Shown here piece after piece: positions 12,520 through 40,987 of a stretch of DNA of 64,000 nucleotides. This DNA is from Desulfovibrio sp. (GTDB lineage Bacteria; Desulfobacterota; Desulfovibrionia; Desulfovibrionales; Desulfovibrionaceae): contig JAILPJ010000073.1 of the NCBI GenBank assembly GCA_024699605.1, positions 1-64,000 on the forward strand. Direction: 5' to 3'. Position 1 is the first letter of the stretch. Each line of letters begins with the position of its first letter. A model generated the notes under the pieces. It saw only the letters and a list, made by a program, of their open reading frames with translations. It was not told the DNA's origin and made no database searches. The position numbers and the translations under genes are program-made.

Positions 12520-13638
12520 ATGCGTAAAAAACTTGGTGTGTTCTTCCTTTCCCTGTGTATGGCCATTGTCTGCGCCTCCGGCAGCGCCATGGCGAAAGAA
12601 AAGCTTCAGATCCAAACGGCTTTGACCAACTCCTCCATCTATATGAGGACGTTGGAACGCTTTAAGGCCAATGTGGAAAAACTGTCTAAGGGCGAGCTGG
12701 AAATCGAGCTCCTTGCCGCTGGCGCCATTGTTAAACCCTTTGAAATTTACGGTGCGGTGAGCGAAGGCCTGGTCAACGGCGGCATGGCCTGGACTCATTA
12801 CAACTCCGGCCTCAACCCTGCTGGCACATTGTTCTCAGCTCCTTGTGGTGGCATCGGCTACGGACTGGACCAAGCTTCTGTCATGGCCTGGATCTTTGAA
12901 GGCGACGGCGGCAAGCTGCTGAACAGGTACTATCAGGAAGCCTGCAAGCAAGACATCGTGGCTTTTGCTGTGCTGCCGATGGGCCCCGAAGCGTTTGGCT
13001 GGTTCCACAAAACCTACAAAACCCTGGCAGAGATCAACAAGCTGAAGTTCCGCTGCCCTCCTGGAGTGCCTGCTGAAATCTTCCATGAAATGGGCATGCC
13101 CGCCGTTTCCATGGGTGGCCCAGACATCATCCCTGCCGCCCAGAAGGGTGTCATTGACTGTGCCGAATGGATCGCCCCGGCCGAAGATATCGCCATGGGC
13201 TTTGACCAGATCTGGAAGCACCTCTATCTGCAGGGACTGCATCAGGCCCTTTCCATCGGCGATGTCGTCATTAATAAGACCTGGTATAACAAGCTGCCTG
13301 AACACCTGCGTAACGTTCTTGATCTTTGCTTGAAGCTTTGTGTCGTTGATCAGAATAATATGAACATCAAGCTGCATTCCGAAGCCCTCAAGAAGCTCGT
13401 GGAAGGCGGCGTTGTTCTCGATCAGACTCCGCCTGAGTATTACAACGCCTTCATGAAGGCGACTCGTACCGTATTTGCCCGCTATGCTGCCAAGGACGCC
13501 TTCTTTAAGGAAGTCATGGACAACGAGATTGCCTGGGCTAAGCTGACGGTGCCTTTCCAGATGCGCGCCAACGGACTGTACTATACCCTTGGCAAGACCG
13601 CTATGGACGAAGGTCTGATCACAGACTACAAGAAGTAA
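12520..13638 (+). CDS. TRAP transporter solute-binding protein (TakP/FcbT1-like)
   Basis: Signal peptide; KFRCPPGVPAEIFHEMGMPAVSMGGPDIIPAAQKGVIDCAEWIAPAEDIAMGF; adjacent DctQ and DctM. Confidence 0.9.
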   Translation: MRKKLGVFFLSLCMAIVCASGSAMAKEKLQIQTALTNSSIYMRTLERFKANVEKLSKGELEIELLAAGAIVKPFEIYGAVSEGLVNGGMAWTHYNSGLNPAGTLFSAPCGGIGYGLDQASVMAWIFEGDGGKLLNRYYQEACKQDIVAFAVLPMGPEAFGWFHKTYKTLAEINKLKFRCPPGVPAEIFHEMGMPAVSMGGPDIIPAAQKGVIDCAEWIAPAEDIAMGFDQIWKHLYLQGLHQALSIGDVVINKTWYNKLPEHLRNVLDLCLKLCVVDQNNMNIKLHSEALKKLVEGGVVLDQTPPEYYNAFMKATRTVFARYAAKDAFFKEVMDNEIAWAKLTVPFQMRANGLYYTLGKTAMDEGLITDYKK

Positions 13639-13666
13639 TCACAACCGTGTCATAAGTTGCCCTTTG

Positions 13667-13699
13667 AGCCGGAGGAGGCTTGCCTTCCTCCGGCTTTTT
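13667..13699 (+). terminator. Intercistronic attenuator-type hairpin between dctP and dctQ
   Basis: AGCCGGAGGA-ggcttgcct-TCCTCCGGCT-TTTT followed directly by the dctQ ribosome-binding site. Confidence 0.65.
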
Positions 13700-13708
13700 G
13701 GAGGAAAT

Positions 13709-14323
13709 ATGGGATACACCTATGAAGAGGCCATGGCACAAGTACCACCCGTTGCTCATAAAGTCATATCGTTTATTGATATTGTGAGCGGTTTCGTTGG
13801 CAAAGCCGCGTCATGGTTGTGTGTGCCCATGATTGCCTTTTTGATCTGCGAAGTCTTTTTGCGCTATGGTTTTAATAAACCGACTGTCTGGGCAAATGAC
13901 CTGACCGTGCTCTGCTACGGCATTATGTACATGCTGGCCTCGCCCTACTGCCTGCGTGACGGCGGGCATGTGCGCACCGACTTTTTTTACCACAACTGGT
14001 CCGTTCGCGCCAAAGCGATTTCCGACATGGCGCATTACATTTTGTTCTTCTATCCGGCACACATCATCTTCCTCTATGTGGGCTGGAAATATTTTGCCAG
14101 TTCCTTCGCCAAGCTGGAGTCCTCTCCAGAAAGCAGCTGGGGCATGTGGATCTGGCCCGCCAAGGGCGCCATTGTCATCTATATTATCCTTACGATGACG
14201 CAGGGTTTTTCGGAACTCCTTAAATGCTGGTACCGTTGTAAAACCAAGGTTGACCTGTGGCATGATAGCCCCGATGCCGATGTCCAAGATTCTTCCGCGC
14301 TTGAAAGTAAGCCTAAGGCATAA
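13709..14323 (+). CDS. TRAP transporter small permease (DctQ)
   Basis: Four-TM protein between DctP and DctM; GGAGG ribosome-binding site then ATG 13709 (MGYTYEEAMAQ). Confidence 0.85.
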   Translation: MGYTYEEAMAQVPPVAHKVISFIDIVSGFVGKAASWLCVPMIAFLICEVFLRYGFNKPTVWANDLTVLCYGIMYMLASPYCLRDGGHVRTDFFYHNWSVRAKAISDMAHYILFFYPAHIIFLYVGWKYFASSFAKLESSPESSWGMWIWPAKGAIVIYIILTMTQGFSELLKCWYRCKTKVDLWHDSPDADVQDSSALESKPKA

Positions 14324-14334
14324 GGGGTTTCACG

Positions 14335-15654
14335 ATGTCTCATAATGAAATGCTTGCCATGCTTTCGCTCGTTGGCATGTTCGCTCTTTTCTGCTTTGGC
14401 TTCCCCATCGCCTATACCATGCTGTTCGCTGGCGTGGTTTTCGGATTTCTGGGCATAGGCTGGAAGCTGGTCACCTATCTCCTCACAGTGCAGTTCTATC
14501 AGGTCATGAACGACTCCGTCATGGTGGCCATCCCGTTCTTCCTCATCATGGGGTACATGCTTGAGGGAGCCGGCCTCATGGAGCGTCTCTTCACCGCCTT
14601 TCAGAAACTCTTCGCTAAGCTGCCCGGTTCCCTGTACATGGCCGTTATCTCCACGGGAACACTTTTTGCCGCGGCGACGGGCATTGTGGGTTCCTCCGTT
14701 AACCTGCTCTGCGTGATGGCTGAGCCAACCATGCGGAAGGGCGGCTATGACGTGCGCATGGGTGCGGGCTCAATTGCTGCGGCAGGCACTTTGGGCATCC
14801 TCATTCCACCGAGCATCATGCTCGTCGTGCTTGGCCCCATGGTCGGCGTGCCTGTCACAGATCTTTTTGTTGCGGCTGTTCCTCCAGGACTTTTGTTGGC
14901 CAGCCTGTATATTCTCTATTCACTGATCAAGTGCTGTCTCTGGCCAAAGTACGGTCCTCCGCTGCCTCCTGAACTGCGCCCGAAGTCCGGAGGTGAAGTT
15001 GTCAAGGAGCTCTTAGTCGGCGCTATCCCGTTGCTGCTCCTCATTCTTTCCGTGTTGGGCAGCATCATGTTCGGCCTTGCCACGCCAACGGAAGCTTCAG
15101 CCTGTGGTGCTTTCGCCTCCATCATCATGGTCATCGCCTACCGCAAATTCACATTTCGCAGTTTTGCCAAGGCCATGTTTGCCACGGCCAAGATGTCGGC
15201 AATGATCCTGGTCATGATTGCCTCGTGTAACTTCTTTGGCGCTGTGTTTTCGCGGCTGGGCGGAGCAACGTACCTTTCCAATCTGCTGCTGAGTTTAAAC
15301 GTGGCCCCCATGGTTATGCTCTGCATGATCCTTGTGATCATCTTCTTCATGGGCTGGGCCATGGAATGGATCCCCATCGTACTCATTCTCATTCCTCTGC
15401 TTCTGCCTGTTGTCGAGGCCATGGGCTATGACAAGCTGTGGTTCTGCATGCTCGTGGCCGTTACATTGCAGACGTCGTGGCTTTCGCCGCCCGTTGCCCT
15501 ATCAGCCTATTTTATCAAGGGAGCTGTTCCGCACTGGAAGCTCACCGACATCTACGCCGGCATGTTCCAGTACATTTGCTGTCAGATTATTGGTGTTATC
15601 CTGCTCATCAGCTTCCCAGAAATCCTGACCATTTTTTCACGCTTATTTAAGTAG
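14335..15654 (+). CDS. TRAP transporter large permease (DctM)
   Basis: FGFPIAYTMLFAGVVFG, GTLGILIPPSIMLVVLG, GLATPTEASACGAFA. Confidence 0.93.
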   Translation: MSHNEMLAMLSLVGMFALFCFGFPIAYTMLFAGVVFGFLGIGWKLVTYLLTVQFYQVMNDSVMVAIPFFLIMGYMLEGAGLMERLFTAFQKLFAKLPGSLYMAVISTGTLFAAATGIVGSSVNLLCVMAEPTMRKGGYDVRMGAGSIAAAGTLGILIPPSIMLVVLGPMVGVPVTDLFVAAVPPGLLLASLYILYSLIKCCLWPKYGPPLPPELRPKSGGEVVKELLVGAIPLLLLILSVLGSIMFGLATPTEASACGAFASIIMVIAYRKFTFRSFAKAMFATAKMSAMILVMIASCNFFGAVFSRLGGATYLSNLLLSLNVAPMVMLCMILVIIFFMGWAMEWIPIVLILIPLLLPVVEAMGYDKLWFCMLVAVTLQTSWLSPPVALSAYFIKGAVPHWKLTDIYAGMFQYICCQIIGVILLISFPEILTIFSRLFK

Positions 15655-15661
15655 GCTTAGA

Positions 15662-16315
15662 ATGATGCGTACTTTTCTCGCCGGCAACCTCATGCTTGGC
15701 CTTGTCGCCGCGATGCTCGTTTTACCGTGCACTTGCCTGTCCATACCGTTGCTTCAAGGCTTTGAGTACAATGCGCCCAAGTCGGAAATCGCTGGGCGCG
15801 AGGGAGCCGTTTTGGGAAAAGAGGCTTTTCAGGACAATGTGTTTCTCAGAGGCGTGCAATGGGCAGGATATGCTTGGACGGCGCAATGTCATTTTCAGGA
15901 AGAAAAACTCAACGCTGTCACGCTGTATTCCGCGTATTCCAGAGAACTGCTCAAGCGTGTGAGTGCTCATCTTAAGGAACAGCAGTTTCAGCTGCTGGGC
16001 ATGATCATTGATGACAAGGCGCTGGACATGATCAGCTTGGTCAAGTTGGGTGGGTTTGAGGCGTTCCAGAAGCGCTTCCGCGAGCTCACAAGCGCCAAGG
16101 TTCCGCAAAAGATTAGCTACAAATGGCTTGATATGAAGAACATCCCCCAGGAACAGCTGAACGACACAGCCTCCCTTGGTCAATTACTTATGCTTGTCCC
16201 CATGGATACGCTGCAAATCGATATTACTCAGAGTGCTGTTGGGGAAAAGCTTGAGAACAGCAAACTGCTTATCCATTTCTCCTATCCGGTGATGGATGAA
16301 ATGACAAAAAAGTAA
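15662..16315 (+). CDS. Exported protein of unknown function at the end of the TRAP operon
   Basis: 217-aa ORF with N-terminal signal peptide, starting 8 nt after dctM. Confidence 0.7.
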   Translation: MMRTFLAGNLMLGLVAAMLVLPCTCLSIPLLQGFEYNAPKSEIAGREGAVLGKEAFQDNVFLRGVQWAGYAWTAQCHFQEEKLNAVTLYSAYSRELLKRVSAHLKEQQFQLLGMIIDDKALDMISLVKLGGFEAFQKRFRELTSAKVPQKISYKWLDMKNIPQEQLNDTASLGQLLMLVPMDTLQIDITQSAVGEKLENSKLLIHFSYPVMDEMTKK

Positions 16316-33886: not shown

Positions 33887-34636
33887 TTAGATCGGGAGAA
33901 AAAGGCTTCGGACGAGCAGAAAAAGGCCAAGAATGGCACAGGTTACGGCCATTAGTCTGCGGACCCAGAGCACAGGCATATGGCTTACGGCAAAAACGCC
34001 GCAGATGAAGCCAGCCAGCTCGAGGCCGCTTACGCGTAGAAGCATGGGCCCATCCACATTGCCGTTGAGCCAGTTGGCCCATGACGCTGTCAGGGCTGTT
34101 GCCAGAGAATAGGGCATGGTCAGGCCCACCGCAGCAAGAGGGGGCATGCCGCAGGGAACCATCCAGGCTATGGCCAAAAGGGGGCCTCCGGCACCGGTGA
34201 TGCCAGCCATGGTCCCTGTGACCATGCCAATGACGCCTAAGCCTTTGGGAGTGAGCCAGAACGAGGGGCCTTGGCTTTTTTGCACAGGGGGTTTGAAGGA
34301 GGAAAAAGCGGCAAAGAGCACCAAAAGCGCCAGGAGGATATTCAGGAAGCTGGCATGGAGATGAACGTTGAAGAGGGCGGCGGGACCGGCAGCCAAAGCG
34401 CCTCCCAAGGTGAAGGGGAGAGCCTGGCGCCAGTGGATATGACCGAGTCTGTGGAAGAGATAGCAGCCAAGAACGTTCATGGGAATGAAGGAAGCCAGTG
34501 TTGTGGCCATGGCTGCGTGGGTTTTGAGGCCACTGAGGAGGACAAGGGCAGGGGGAATGAGGATTCCCCCCATGCCCGTGCCTCCTACAAGAATCCCCAC
34601 AGCAAGACAGATAGTATACAAGGCGAGTAGAGCCAT
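33887..34636 (-). CDS. TauE/SafE-family sulfite (anion) exporter
   Basis: Polytopic protein with GGTGMGGILIPPALVLLSGL and GTMAGITGAGGPLLAIAWM repeats typical of TauE/SafE. Confidence 0.82.
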   Translation of the reverse strand: MALLALYTICLAVGILVGGTGMGGILIPPALVLLSGLKTHAAMATTLASFIPMNVLGCYLFHRLGHIHWRQALPFTLGGALAAGPAALFNVHLHASFLNILLALLVLFAAFSSFKPPVQKSQGPSFWLTPKGLGVIGMVTGTMAGITGAGGPLLAIAWMVPCGMPPLAAVGLTMPYSLATALTASWANWLNGNVDGPMLLRVSGLELAGFICGVFAVSHMPVLWVRRLMAVTCAILGLFLLVRSLFLPI

Positions 34637-34677: not shown

Positions 34678-35511
34678 TTAGGAAAGTTTGAGGACGCGCT
34701 TGGCGTTTTCGTACATGACCTTTTTGCGTACGTCGTCTTTCAGCGGAAAGTCCTTGTAGGCAGCCAACGCATCTTTCAGCTCAACAAAGGGATGGGCGCT
34801 GGCAAAGAGGACTTTGTCGGCAATCATGTCGTTCATGGCGCGGACATAGATATCGATCATGGGAGAGCGCTCATATTCCGAAATGTCCATATAGACATTG
34901 GCATTGCGCAGGCAGGTGTAGATGGCCTCAGAGACAAAGGGATAACCGCCGTGGCTCATGATGATGCACAATTCGGGAAAGTCGCGGGCAACTTTATCCA
35001 CATCTCTGGGATCCGCATACTCGAGAATGGCTCCAGAAACTTCTGGCGGAGGTGCCATGGTGATGAAGACGGGGATGCCGAGATCCACACAGCGTGTGTA
35101 GATTGGATAGAAGCGGGCCTCGCTGGCCGGAATGTGAGCAAGGTAGGGGTCAATGGCAATGCCTTTCATGCCAAAGTCTTTGACCACATGCTCCATCTCA
35201 TCAAGAGCCGCACGTTTTTTGTGGGGATCAATGCCCCAGAAGCCCACGAATTTATTGGGATAGCTCTTGCAGAATTGGAGTACACTCTGATTATTGGCCG
35301 GAAAACCATAGGTCGTCTCGCAGTCGCGGCCTGTGATCACACCCAGTTCCACATCCATGGCGTCGAGATCGGCGACGATCTCAGGCAAGGACTGGGCTTT
35401 ACGCGCATCAAAGCCGATCACTTTACAGGCGGCTTTGAACATGGTGCTGTTTTTGATTCCGTCAATGATCTCTGGGGTATTGGGGCGGAAACGGAAATCA
35501 ATGGTTTTCAT
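34678..35511 (-). CDS. Amidohydrolase-family protein (COG2159-like TIM barrel)
   Basis: MKTIDFRFRPNTPEI, KGIAIDPYLAHIPASEARFYPIYTRCVDLGIPVFITM, IIMSHGGYPFVSEAI, VLFASAHPF. Confidence 0.8.
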   Translation of the reverse strand: MKTIDFRFRPNTPEIIDGIKNSTMFKAACKVIGFDARKAQSLPEIVADLDAMDVELGVITGRDCETTYGFPANNQSVLQFCKSYPNKFVGFWGIDPHKKRAALDEMEHVVKDFGMKGIAIDPYLAHIPASEARFYPIYTRCVDLGIPVFITMAPPPEVSGAILEYADPRDVDKVARDFPELCIIMSHGGYPFVSEAIYTCLRNANVYMDISEYERSPMIDIYVRAMNDMIADKVLFASAHPFVELKDALAAYKDFPLKDDVRKKVMYENAKRVLKLS

Positions 35512-35708
35512 GAAAGCAACTCCTCTTACGGAACAGACGATTATTGGCCGCTGACAGGACACAGCGGCGCTTCAGATGAGAGTACTGAAGAGCAGACATG
35601 ATATAAAAAGATGGGAATGATCATGGTCTCCGTACGAGAAAGGCAGAATGCGGTGACAAAAGACAGTTCCCGTAACGGCAAGTTCCAAAGGCCTGGAACG
35701 CTCCTTGA

Positions 35709-36740
<1,032 letters not shown>

Positions 36741-36765: not shown

Positions 36766-36781
36766 AGCAATATACATGCCA
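36766..36781 (-). promoter_or_regulatory. Candidate sigma54 promoter for the dctP/amidohydrolase/TauE unit
   Basis: Reverse complement TGGCATG-TATA-TTGCT versus consensus TGGCACG-N4-TTGCW. Confidence 0.65.
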
Positions 36782-36885: not shown

Positions 36886-36901
36886 GTAGCAAATTTGCGA
36901 C
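36886..36901. promoter_or_regulatory. Palindromic operator/enhancer copy 1
   Basis: GTAGCAAATTTGCGAC, one mismatch to GTCGCAAATTTGCGAC. Confidence 0.6.
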
Positions 36902-37112
36902 GCTTGTGGCCGCTTGCTTGAGACGTGCGAGCTTGTTCTGCGAAAAAGCGCTCAAAGGCAGCCAAGGCGCAAAAACCGGATAGGCGTATATCCAATAAGA
37001 GAACGCTGCTCTGCCTGGACAACGGGCCTTTTTGGTCTCTGGCAGAGGCTATTTCGGAGTTAGGCTGAGCAATCTGGCCGAGTCTTGGACCTTGCCTTTT
37101 GACGGATCATTT

Positions 37113-37128
37113 GTCGCAAATTTGCGAC
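37113..37128. promoter_or_regulatory. Palindromic operator/enhancer copy 2 (perfect)
   Basis: GTCGCAAATTTGCGAC, perfect 16-bp palindrome. Confidence 0.65.
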
Positions 37129-37164
37129 GATTGAGAGCGCTATTTGGGCAATGGGCAAGAGATA

Positions 37165-37180
37165 GATGCAAATTTGCGAC
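37165..37180. promoter_or_regulatory. Palindromic operator/enhancer copy 3
   Basis: GATGCAAATTTGCGAC; centre 52 bp from copy 2. Confidence 0.6.
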
Positions 37181-37265: not shown

Positions 37266-37281
37266 TGGCACAAGTCCTGCA
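37266..37281 (+). promoter_or_regulatory. Candidate sigma54 promoter for islA
   Basis: TGGCACA-AGTC-CTGCA versus consensus TGGCACG-N4-TTGCW with exact GG/GC spacing. Confidence 0.65.
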
Positions 37282-37398
37282 GAACGACGGCAAGACGAAC
37301 TTGTCCGCAATGCAGGAAAGGTTTTGCGTGCGGATCGAAGACGAGAAATCCTCAACGACGACTGCTTTCTCTTATGGAGAACAGTCAAGGAGTTTACC

Positions 37399-39891
37399 AT
37401 GACGCAAGTTTGCGAATGCCGTTCTCCCCAGGAACAGCGCCTTCAGGACAAAATAGAGGGCAAAGAAGATAAATTCAGAAAATCTCATTCTCGTGTCTTC
37501 AAACTGCTTGAGCGTTTTGAAGGTCAGAAACCGCGCATTGATATTGAACGCGCCCTGTATTTCACCGAGTCCATGAAAGAGACTGAAGGCCAGCCCCTGG
37601 TGCTGCGCTGGGCCAAAGCCTTGATGCATGTTGCCAAAAACATCACGGTGACCGTGCAGGACGATCAACTGCTTCTGGGTCGTGCCGGCTGCGATGGTCG
37701 TTATGGCATTCTCTATCCTGAGCTCGACGGTGACTTTCTGGATATTGCCGTGCGTGATCTGCCCACGCGTGCCACCTCACCGGCCACCATCACGCCTGAA
37801 GACGCCAAGCGTGTTGTGGAAGAGATTGCTCCCTACTGGAAAGGCAAGACCTTCCACGAAGATCTGAACCGTTCACTGCCGCCTGATGTGCACAAGCTGA
37901 CCTACGATGATCCCGAGGGCTTGATTTCTCGCTTTATCGTCAATGAAACAGCGTCCTTCCGCAGCTCCATTCAGTGGGTGCACGACTACGGCAAAATTTT
38001 GCGCCGCGGTTTCAACGACATCAAGCGTGAAGCCGAGGAAAAGCTGGCAGCTCTGGATCCCATGAGCTGCAAGGACAATTGTGAAAAACGGCCTTTCCTG
38101 GAAGCCGTGATCATTGTCAGTGAAGCCATTGTGCTTTGGGCCAAACGGCATGCCGTGATGGCGCGTGCCATGGCTCAGGTGGAACAGGATCCTGTCCGTA
38201 AAGCCGAGCTTCTGCGTATGGCTGACAATGCCGATCGTGTTCCCGGCGAGCCCGCCCGTGATTTCTGGGAAGCCTGCCAGAGCCAGTGGTTTACCCAGAT
38301 GTTCTCACGCATGGAACAGAAGACCGGCACGACCATTTCCAATGGTCGCATGGACCAGTATTTCTATCCCTATTATCTTGCCGATAAGAAGGCCGGAAAA
38401 ATCAATGATGCCCAGGCCATGGAGCTTTTGGAATGCATGTGGGTGGGCATGGCTGAATTTATCGATATGTATATTTCTCCCACAGGCGGAGCCTTCAACG
38501 AAGGCTATGCCCACTGGGAAGCCGTAACTGTGGGCGGCCAGACTCCCGACGGACGCGACGCCAGCAATGAACTGACCTATCTGATTCTGAAGTCAAAACG
38601 AGAATTCCCCCTGCACTATCCTGATCTGGCTGCCCGCATTCACTCTCGCGCGCCTGAGCGCTATCTCTGGGATGTGGCTGAAACCATTAAGTATGGTTCA
38701 GGCTTCCCCAAGCTGATCAATGACGAAGAAGTGGTGCCGCTCTACGTCTCCAAGGGCGCAACCTTTGAGGAGGCCCTTGACTATGCCGTCAGCGGCTGCA
38801 CTGAAGCCAGAATGCCCAATCGTGACACCTACACCTCTGGCGGAGCCTACATCAACTTTGCCGCTGCCGTGGAAATGGTTCTGCGTAACGGTCGCATGAA
38901 GAAATACGGCGATCAGGTTCTGGGTGTGGAAACCGGGGATCCGCGTTCCTTCAAAACCTGGGAAGAATTCTGGGAGGCCTATAAGACGCAGCATCTGCTC
39001 TTCCTGAAAACGGCTTTCCATCAGCAGTACATCATCAACAAGCTGCGTGCCCAGCACTTTGCTCAACCCATGGGTTCGGCCATGCATGATCTCTGCATGA
39101 AACATTGCATTGATCTGCACCAGGAGCAGATTCCCGAAGGCATCAATTTCGGCTATTTTGAATACATGGGACTGGGTACCGTGGTCGACTCCCTCTGCGC
39201 TGTGAAAAAGTTTGTCTTTGAAGAGAAGAAGATCACCATGGACAAGCTCATCGAAGCCATTGACGCCAATTTTGAGGGCTATGACGATATCAAGGCTTTG
39301 CTCAAGAGCGCACCCTGCTATGGCAATAACGATCCCTATGCTGACGCCATTGGCAAGGAAATCGACAAGATCTCCGTGGAATTCGGTGGCAAGTACAGCA
39401 TGCACGATTTAGGCATTCACAACGACGTGCGTTATGTGCCCTTTACGTCGCATGTGCCCTTTGGCAAGGTCGTCTCGGCAACTCCCAACGGTCGCACCGA
39501 CGGCTTCCCGCTTTCCGACGGTTCTTCCGCTTCCCATGGTGCCGACGTCAATGGTCCCACAGCCGTCCTCTTGTCCAACTATAATACCAAGAATATGGGG
39601 ATGCGTGACCGCGCGGCCCGTATGCTCAACATCAAGTTCACGCCCAAGTGCGTGGAAGGTGACGAGGGCACGGAAAAGCTCGTTTCCTTCATCCGTACCT
39701 TCTGTGACCTGAAACTCTGGCATGTGCAGTTCAACGTCCTGAATAAGGAAACGCTGCTCAAAGCCCAGAAGGATCCCAATAAGTACCGCAACTTAATCGT
39801 GCGCATTGCCGGCTACAGCGCCTACTTTGTGGATCTCTCCCCCGATCTGCAGAATGACCTGATTGCCCGCACCGAGCATGAAGCCCTGTAA
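37399..39891 (+). CDS. islA: Glycyl radical enzyme, probable isethionate sulfite-lyase
   Basis: 830 aa from ATG 37399 (AAGGAG ribosome-binding site). SGCTEAR thiyl/Glu loop (C467, E469), glycyl radical loop [10 protein letters not shown] (G805), R188/Q192 in FRSSIQW, W373, R678 and F682. This matches the recalled IslA sulfonate-pocket pattern within one residue of numbering. Confidence 0.88.
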
Positions 39892-40018: not shown

Positions 40019-40987
40019 ATGAGTCAGGAATGTCCCGATAGCCAGCAGAAGGGTATGGTCTTCAATATTCAGAAATTTTCTGTGCATGACGGCCCAGGCA
40101 TCCGCACCATTGTCTTTTTGAAGGGCTGTGCTTTGCGATGCCGCTGGTGTAGTAATCCTGAGTCGCAGCTGGCTGAACCCGATCTGGCCTTTAACGCTGG
40201 TCGCTGTCTCGGTGTTTCCAAATGTGGACACTGCATTGTGGCCTGTCCCTACGGAGCTATTCGTCTCGGCGATAGCGATCTGCCTGTTATTGACCGTAAG
40301 GCGTGTGCCGACTGTCAGGACAAAGCCTGTGCCAGCGCCTGTCCGGCCCAGGGCCTTTTGGTCTATGGCAAAATGCGCAGCGTGGATGATGTGCTTTCTG
40401 TGGTTGAGCAGGATATGGCTTTTTATGTGCGTTCGCGGGGAGGACTGACCCTTTCCGGCGGTGAGCCTTTGCTGCAGAAGGATTTTGCTCTGGCTCTCTT
40501 GCGTGAGGCCCATGAGCGGCATATCCGCTGTGCCATTGAAACCTGTGGCATGGTGCCTGAAGCAACAGTACGTGCGGCTGCCCCTTATCTGCGGCAGGTA
40601 CTTTTTGACATCAAGCACTTGGATCCTGCGGTGCACAAGGCACAAACAGGCATGAGCAATGAACGCATTCTGGCCAATTTCCGCATTCTGGCAGAAGAAT
40701 TTCCCGATCTGCCCATTCTGGCCAGAACACCGGTGATTCCGGGTTTTAATGATAATGCCAAGACCATCAAAGCCATTGCCGAATTTTTACAGCCCTTCAG
40801 CCGGGTCGAATATGAAATGCTGCCGTACCATCGTCTGGGTACGCAGAAATATCTTTTTCTTGATCGTCAGGTGCCCATGGGTGACGTGCAGCTCAATCAA
40901 AAGAAAATGCGCATTTTGCGTGATCTGGCGCAGAGTGTGCTCGGTGCGCGTCTGCACAGACCCAAGGAAAAGACGAAGAAGGCCTGA
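40019..40987 (+). CDS. islB: Glycyl radical enzyme activating enzyme (radical SAM), partner of islA
   Basis: SVHDGPGIRTIVFLKGCALRCRWCSNPESQ with CxxxCxxC; ferredoxin-like Cys clusters CGHCIVACP and CADCQDKACASACP; SGGEPLLQ. Confidence 0.92.
   Translation: MSQECPDSQQKGMVFNIQKFSVHDGPGIRTIVFLKGCALRCRWCSNPESQLAEPDLAFNAGRCLGVSKCGHCIVACPYGAIRLGDSDLPVIDRKACADCQDKACASACPAQGLLVYGKMRSVDDVLSVVEQDMAFYVRSRGGLTLSGGEPLLQKDFALALLREAHERHIRCAIETCGMVPEATVRAAAPYLRQVLFDIKHLDPAVHKAQTGMSNERILANFRILAEEFPDLPILARTPVIPGFNDNAKTIKAIAEFLQPFSRVEYEMLPYHRLGTQKYLFLDRQVPMGDVQLNQKKMRILRDLAQSVLGARLHRPKEKTKKA

Follow-up and report, generated by a model that had tools for sequence, protein, structure and literature searches.

Isethionate, including that derived from taurine, is a source of the hydrogen sulfide that gut bacteria produce. 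In the window, the 64-kb stretch of Desulfovibrio DNA analyzed here, the isethionate sulfite-lyase gene islA is preceded by three copies of the palindrome GTCGCAAATTTGCGAC. The question raised by this locus is which regulator recognizes these copies and which promoters they serve. The original prediction regarded them as a possible operator for a regulator of C2 sulfonates. So far as sequence comparison can tell, it is very probable that they are enhancer sites (UAS) for IslR, the sigma-54 activator of isethionate genes. The link to C2 sulfonates was sound, since the motif is a conserved one of isethionate genes, but the sites are predicted to constitute a sigma-54 enhancer and not a classical operator.

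Three copies of a rare palindrome and the surrounding genes

A mismatch search located copy 1 at 36886..36901 (GTAGCAAATTTGCGAC, 1 mismatch), copy 2 at 37113..37128 (GTCGCAAATTTGCGAC, a perfect 16-bp palindrome) and copy 3 at 37165..37180 (GATGCAAATTTGCGAC, 2 mismatches), and the positions and mismatches originally given for the three were all exact. Copies 2 and 3 are the predicted distal and proximal UAS, respectively, of a pair serving islA, and copy 1 is a predicted third UAS with dctP as its probable partner; none of them is assigned to a strand. The starts of copies 2 and 3 are 52 bp apart. This spacing, already noted in the original prediction as 52 bp between centers or about five helical turns, is conserved in orthologues and is consistent with binding to the same face of the DNA.

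When up to three mismatches were allowed, four matches were observed in the window, compared with 0.35 expected from shuffled sequences (largest number, 2). The fourth match (37401-37416, 3 mismatches) covers the first islA codons, and was not retained as a further regulatory site because its location within the islA start is best explained by coding. In the whole draft genome (2,756,815 bases), the matches with two or fewer mismatches were solely the three intergenic copies. The genome-wide search that had been proposed as a check thus found the motif to be infrequent and its close copies confined to one intergenic region, and the remark that no full copy occurs elsewhere holds for the 2.76-Mb genome. 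Matches with three mismatches beyond the window were scattered, including those on contigs C11, C64 and C22; the last (C22:31832) was considered as an extra regulon member and rejected, as it lies within a coding sequence.

The islA gene (37399..39891, plus strand) encodes a glycyl radical enzyme, and the closest solved structure is IslA 7kq3. The product scored 1523 bits against 7kq3 over the full length, 1451 bits against 5ymr and 1221 bits against 6lon, which is of the HpsG/sulfopropanediol dehydratase type. The NCBIfam model NF048011 (sulfopropanediol dehydratase) gave 1538 bits versus a cut-off of 1000 bits. The HpsG identity suggested by this model was rejected, because the solved IslA structures outscore the solved HpsG-type 6lon, and by these scores the product of 37399-39891 is clearly nearer to characterized IslA than to HpsG. 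Since NF048011 is far over its cut-off on an IslA orthologue, automatic annotation may misname IslA proteins.

A Shine-Dalgarno-like AAGGAG of islA was read directly from the sequence at 37387..37392 (plus strand), and islB (40019..40987, plus strand), encoding the glycyl-radical activating enzyme, is located 3′ of islA. On the minus strand, a divergent operon consists, in this order, of dctP for a TRAP substrate-binding protein (35709..36725), an amidohydrolase-family gene (34678..35562) and a TauE/SafE-family sulfite exporter-like gene (33887..34636). The amidohydrolase-family gene is DVU2820-like by family and regulon position, and its orthologues in relatives adjoin the motif. The description of the three copies as being upstream of islA is correct in that the downstream gene is an IslA orthologue, but copy 1 is nearer to the divergent dctP and its sigma-54 promoter. 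No transcription factor gene adjoining islA was found in the window.

Another TRAP operon (binding protein, DctQ, DctM and a small protein) is present at 12520-16315 of the window, 21 kb from islA, and the window sequence around it shows neither a strong motif match nor a strong sigma-54 match. This operon is 70-94% identical to the one located immediately upstream of islA in the closest relative (L035), indicating that the islA neighborhood has been rearranged between close species.

Sigma-54 promoters on both sides of the sites

Sites for enhancer-binding proteins are expected to show up as dyads placed approximately 100-150 bp ahead of a sigma-54 promoter. A sigma-54 (-24/-12) promoter of islA with correct GG/GC spacing, TGGCACAAGTCCTGCA, is predicted at 37266..37281 on the plus strand, and its TGG and TGCA columns are invariant in an alignment of seven upstream sequences. 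The promoter predicted for dctP, TGGCATGTATATTGCT, is at 36766..36781 on the minus strand, and the dctP orthologues of relatives likewise lie behind a divergent element of this type. When both strands of the 64 kb were searched, these two, one per strand, were the only sigma-54 matches with a score of at least 22 (0.85 expected by chance, from mononucleotide shuffling). Sigma-54 itself is encoded in the genome on contig C112. The proximal UAS is 101 bp from the islA -24/-12 element, start to start, and the islA dyads are located in the range of approximately 80-200 bp upstream taken for a sigma-54 enhancer, with conserved spacing. Because the only two strong sigma-54 promoters of the window flank the sites, the predicted target of copies 2 and 3 is islA, and that of copy 1 is most likely the divergent dctP promoter.

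Many orthologous loci have a divergent sigma-54 promoter with a distal site approximately 110-120 bp away, and the 36886 site and dctP show the same layout in the window. In the loci checked, the divergent gene was a dctP orthologue in ten and an amidohydrolase gene in one; elsewhere, its product was another kind of TRAP-type binding protein (in L019) or, on visual inspection, resembled an MFS transporter (in L049). In L035, copy 1 is kept, dctP is separated from islA, and no sigma-54 promoter was seen for dctP. Retention of copy 1 there, with neither an adjacent dctP nor its promoter, suggests that this copy may also aid islA.

Conservation in orthologous islA loci

Footprinting upstream of islA orthologues, also proposed originally as a check, was performed with 79 IslA-relative loci from public genomes, and the comparison was made on the loci whose upstream DNA was usable. 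A position-weight matrix trained on the orthologous sites is circular as a measure of enrichment, and for this reason we recounted the sites by plain mismatches (three or fewer to the window consensus), with the window and its nearest relative excluded. The motif occurred 50 times in 48,478 upstream bases versus 10 times in 1,113,120 other bases. It is thus not absent from these regions but enriched approximately 115-fold; when the same upstream DNA was Markov-shuffled, matches averaged 0.42 and never exceeded 2. At this strict threshold, 30 of the 71 loci had a site. With the weight matrix, paired sites were detected in most Desulfovibrio loci, mainly 51-54 bp apart, in a few cases 41-44 bp and in none 45-50 bp. 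The distance from the proximal site to the -24 element was mostly 99-101 bp across orthologues, and otherwise mainly 78, 88-90 or 121-130 bp; the loci are related by descent, and the counts of sites and spacings are accordingly not independent. Such distance steps of about 10 bp suggest that the helix face is under selection.

The seven-sequence alignment contained 31 invariant columns, almost all of them within the two sites (nine in the distal UAS) and the -24/-12 element. Sites 2 and 3 are unchanged in L035, whose IslA shares 96% identity with that of the window, compared with 69% identity in the DNA around them. The motif was also found together with an IslR-type regulator and dctP or islA in Halodesulfovibrio, Desulforhopalus and other Desulfobacterota. 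In Mailhella-type loci, the sigma-54 promoter was present, the motif was absent and the regulator was different.

About half of the family-wide motif sites with at most one mismatch, among the matches listed, were not located in the 1.3 kb preceding an islA-like gene, and some of the sites away from islA adjoin dctP or amidohydrolase genes. Motif pairs only 21 bp apart, corresponding to two helical turns, were observed in some relatives, at L171:6034-6070 and G038:C1:1045247-1045283, and one of these two pairs is placed between dctP and amidohydrolase genes.

The predicted regulator gene is located apart from islAB

In most of the orthologous loci, islB is followed by a gene for an enhancer-binding protein of PAS-AAA+-HTH architecture. 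This usual adjacency to islAB was not found in the genome of the window, where the orthologue is encoded on contig C49:7683-9098 (L098:7683-9098, G000), with intact PAS, Sigma54_activat and HTH_50 domains and the GAFTGA motif. The C49 protein shows 60-78% identity to most of the islA-adjacent activators and only about 45% to the paralogue near hpsG on contig C38. Its gene is placed between mutS2 and dnaG/rpoD, and the nearest relative (G075) has the same context. The predicted islR orthologue has thus been displaced from its usual place beside islAB in this genome. As the regulator gene is outside the window, on another contig, the assignment of the sites to it rests on orthology.

The general domain order of the C49 protein is common to one-component sigma-54 activators such as PrdR, TyrR and PrpR, and the best NCBIfam model was PrdR (371 bits). 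All models of the PrdR/TyrR/PrpR type scored far under their cut-offs, so that the C49 protein is not the equivalent of any of the three.

In a survey of the genus covering 79 genomes, 42 had both islA and the regulator and 25 had neither, with islA only in 5 and the regulator only in 7. This co-occurrence is significant (p = 1.5 × 10-9) by a statistic that ignores kinship and genome incompleteness. In G071, another genome of the genus, an islR orthologue with one in-frame TAG stop is present (G071:C209:5914-7281), and the genome gave no islA match.

Relation to the DVU2827 regulon

The original prediction described the element as possibly undescribed, which does not agree with two earlier reports. 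In the text of Kazakov et al. 2015 (PMC4641369), DVU2827 of D. vulgaris Hildenborough, a one-component enhancer-binding protein, is predicted to control DVU2820 and DVU2822-DVU2825 via sigma-54 promoters, and its sites are predicted in five Desulfovibrionales genomes. As in the window, these sites are upstream of an operon for a glycyl radical enzyme and its activase with TRAP genes, and upstream of an amidohydrolase gene; there, the enzyme is named pyruvate formate-lyase and the function of the regulon is given as pyruvate metabolism. In the text of Peck et al. 2019 (PMC6386719), islR is the predicted regulator gene of the islAB/dct cluster of D. alaskensis G20, and its disruption abolishes growth with isethionate; the main text of that report describes neither binding sites nor sigma-54 dependence. 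The growth phenotype indirectly supports the predicted dependence of transcription on sigma-54 and the activator. A literature search on isethionate sulfite-lyase promoters returned unrelated papers only.

From the cluster membership, we infer that islR of G20 is the orthologue of DVU2827. DVU2827 and IslR would be the same regulator, with the window palindromes as its predicted binding sites. The regulated genes of this regulon, namely islAB, dctP and the amidohydrolase gene, are present here. The arrangement differs in that islA and dctP of D. vulgaris are in one operon with the regulator in the cluster, whereas here the two are transcribed divergently and a separate contig carries the regulator gene. 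Among the genomes compared, the best IslA identity found in the search for D. vulgaris Hildenborough was 83%, and this strain was represented by relatives that share the DVU2820-2827 gene order; GTTGCAAATCTGCAAC was found between their dctP and amidohydrolase genes.

On these comparisons, the palindromes are a real and well-conserved predicted regulatory element of an already predicted kind, and an element picked out of raw sequence is tied to a named regulator, with its likely sites and promoters placed to the base. The present analysis adds the base-level anatomy, the dctP side and the displaced regulator gene, and links the regulon of 2015 with the enzyme of 2019; isethionate is suggested in place of the older pyruvate-metabolism assignment of the DVU2827 regulon. 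The motif with its fixed geometry can serve to locate genes under isethionate control in sulfidogens, even where the regulator gene is displaced.

Proposed mechanism and alternative explanations

IslR would be a one-component regulator, comprising a PAS sensor, an AAA+ sigma-54 activator domain with GAFTGA and a C-terminal HTH. Its dimers would occupy the sites at 37113 and 37165 from the same side of the helix, possibly cooperatively, and help the AAA+ oligomer to assemble. Through a DNA loop, the protein would then contact the sigma-54 RNA polymerase at 37266-37281 and open the islAB promoter at the expense of ATP. At the divergent dctP-amidohydrolase-tauE promoter (36766-36781, minus strand), the same role would fall to the single site at 36886. 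The signal for the PAS domain may be isethionate or a related compound, and activation of the two promoters would jointly induce the uptake of isethionate, the cleavage of its C-S bond and probably the handling of sulfite.

Short perfect palindromes are typical of repressor operators, and the window has no regulator gene next to islA, so that the sites could instead be operators of an unrelated GntR, LacI or TetR type repressor that silences islA when no C2 sulfonate is available. This is very unlikely, because the islA sites are 85-150 bp upstream of the sigma-54 promoter and do not overlap it, and their distance to the -24 element is fixed, changing in jumps of roughly one helical turn. Moreover, the conserved neighbor gene encodes an activator, and loss of isethionate growth upon islR disruption, as given in PMC6386719, is the behavior of an activator. 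That the palindromes arose by chance or belong to a functionless repeat element has a practically negligible probability: the motif is indeed short with an AT-rich center, but the excess over shuffled sequences in the window, the lack of any other copy with two or fewer mismatches in the genome and the enrichment upstream of islA orthologues all argue against it.

Another candidate for recognition of the sites is the activator paralogue encoded at the sulfopropanediol (hpsG) locus on C38, acting either in place of IslR or alongside it. The hpsG promoter is also of the sigma-54 type, with related dyads; the one in the same genome, TATGCAAATGTGCAAC, precedes the -24 element by 84 bp. RSTIFRK is common to both HTH regions, and strong motif matches occur in three hpsG-type upstream regions of relatives. 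Nevertheless, we consider this improbable, as the hpsG sites are mostly weak by the islA matrix and differently spaced (approximately 58 bp), most islA-adjacent activators resemble the C49 protein (60-78%) more than that of C38 (approximately 45%), and the Mailhella loci with a C38-like activator have no motif.

With IslR as the preferred regulator, a broader idea is possible though doubtful. The IslR enhancer code might be an old phase-constrained module of Desulfobacterota, with dyad pairs whole turns apart and set turns from the promoter. Isethionate or some other sulfonate might act directly on the PAS domain, which would make IslR a sulfonate-sensing sigma-54 activator, and its binding specificity would have diverged from that of the sulfopropanediol paralogue through the half-sites GTCGCA versus GTTGYA.

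The hpsG-type paralogue locus of the window genome (G000 contig C38; L159:5852-6076 and L099:5893-7350) has the sigma-54 promoter TGGCACAAGTCCTGCT, weaker related dyads and a paralogous activator of its own. In the hpsG-type loci of several relatives, dyads precede the -24 element by approximately 93 and 151 bp.
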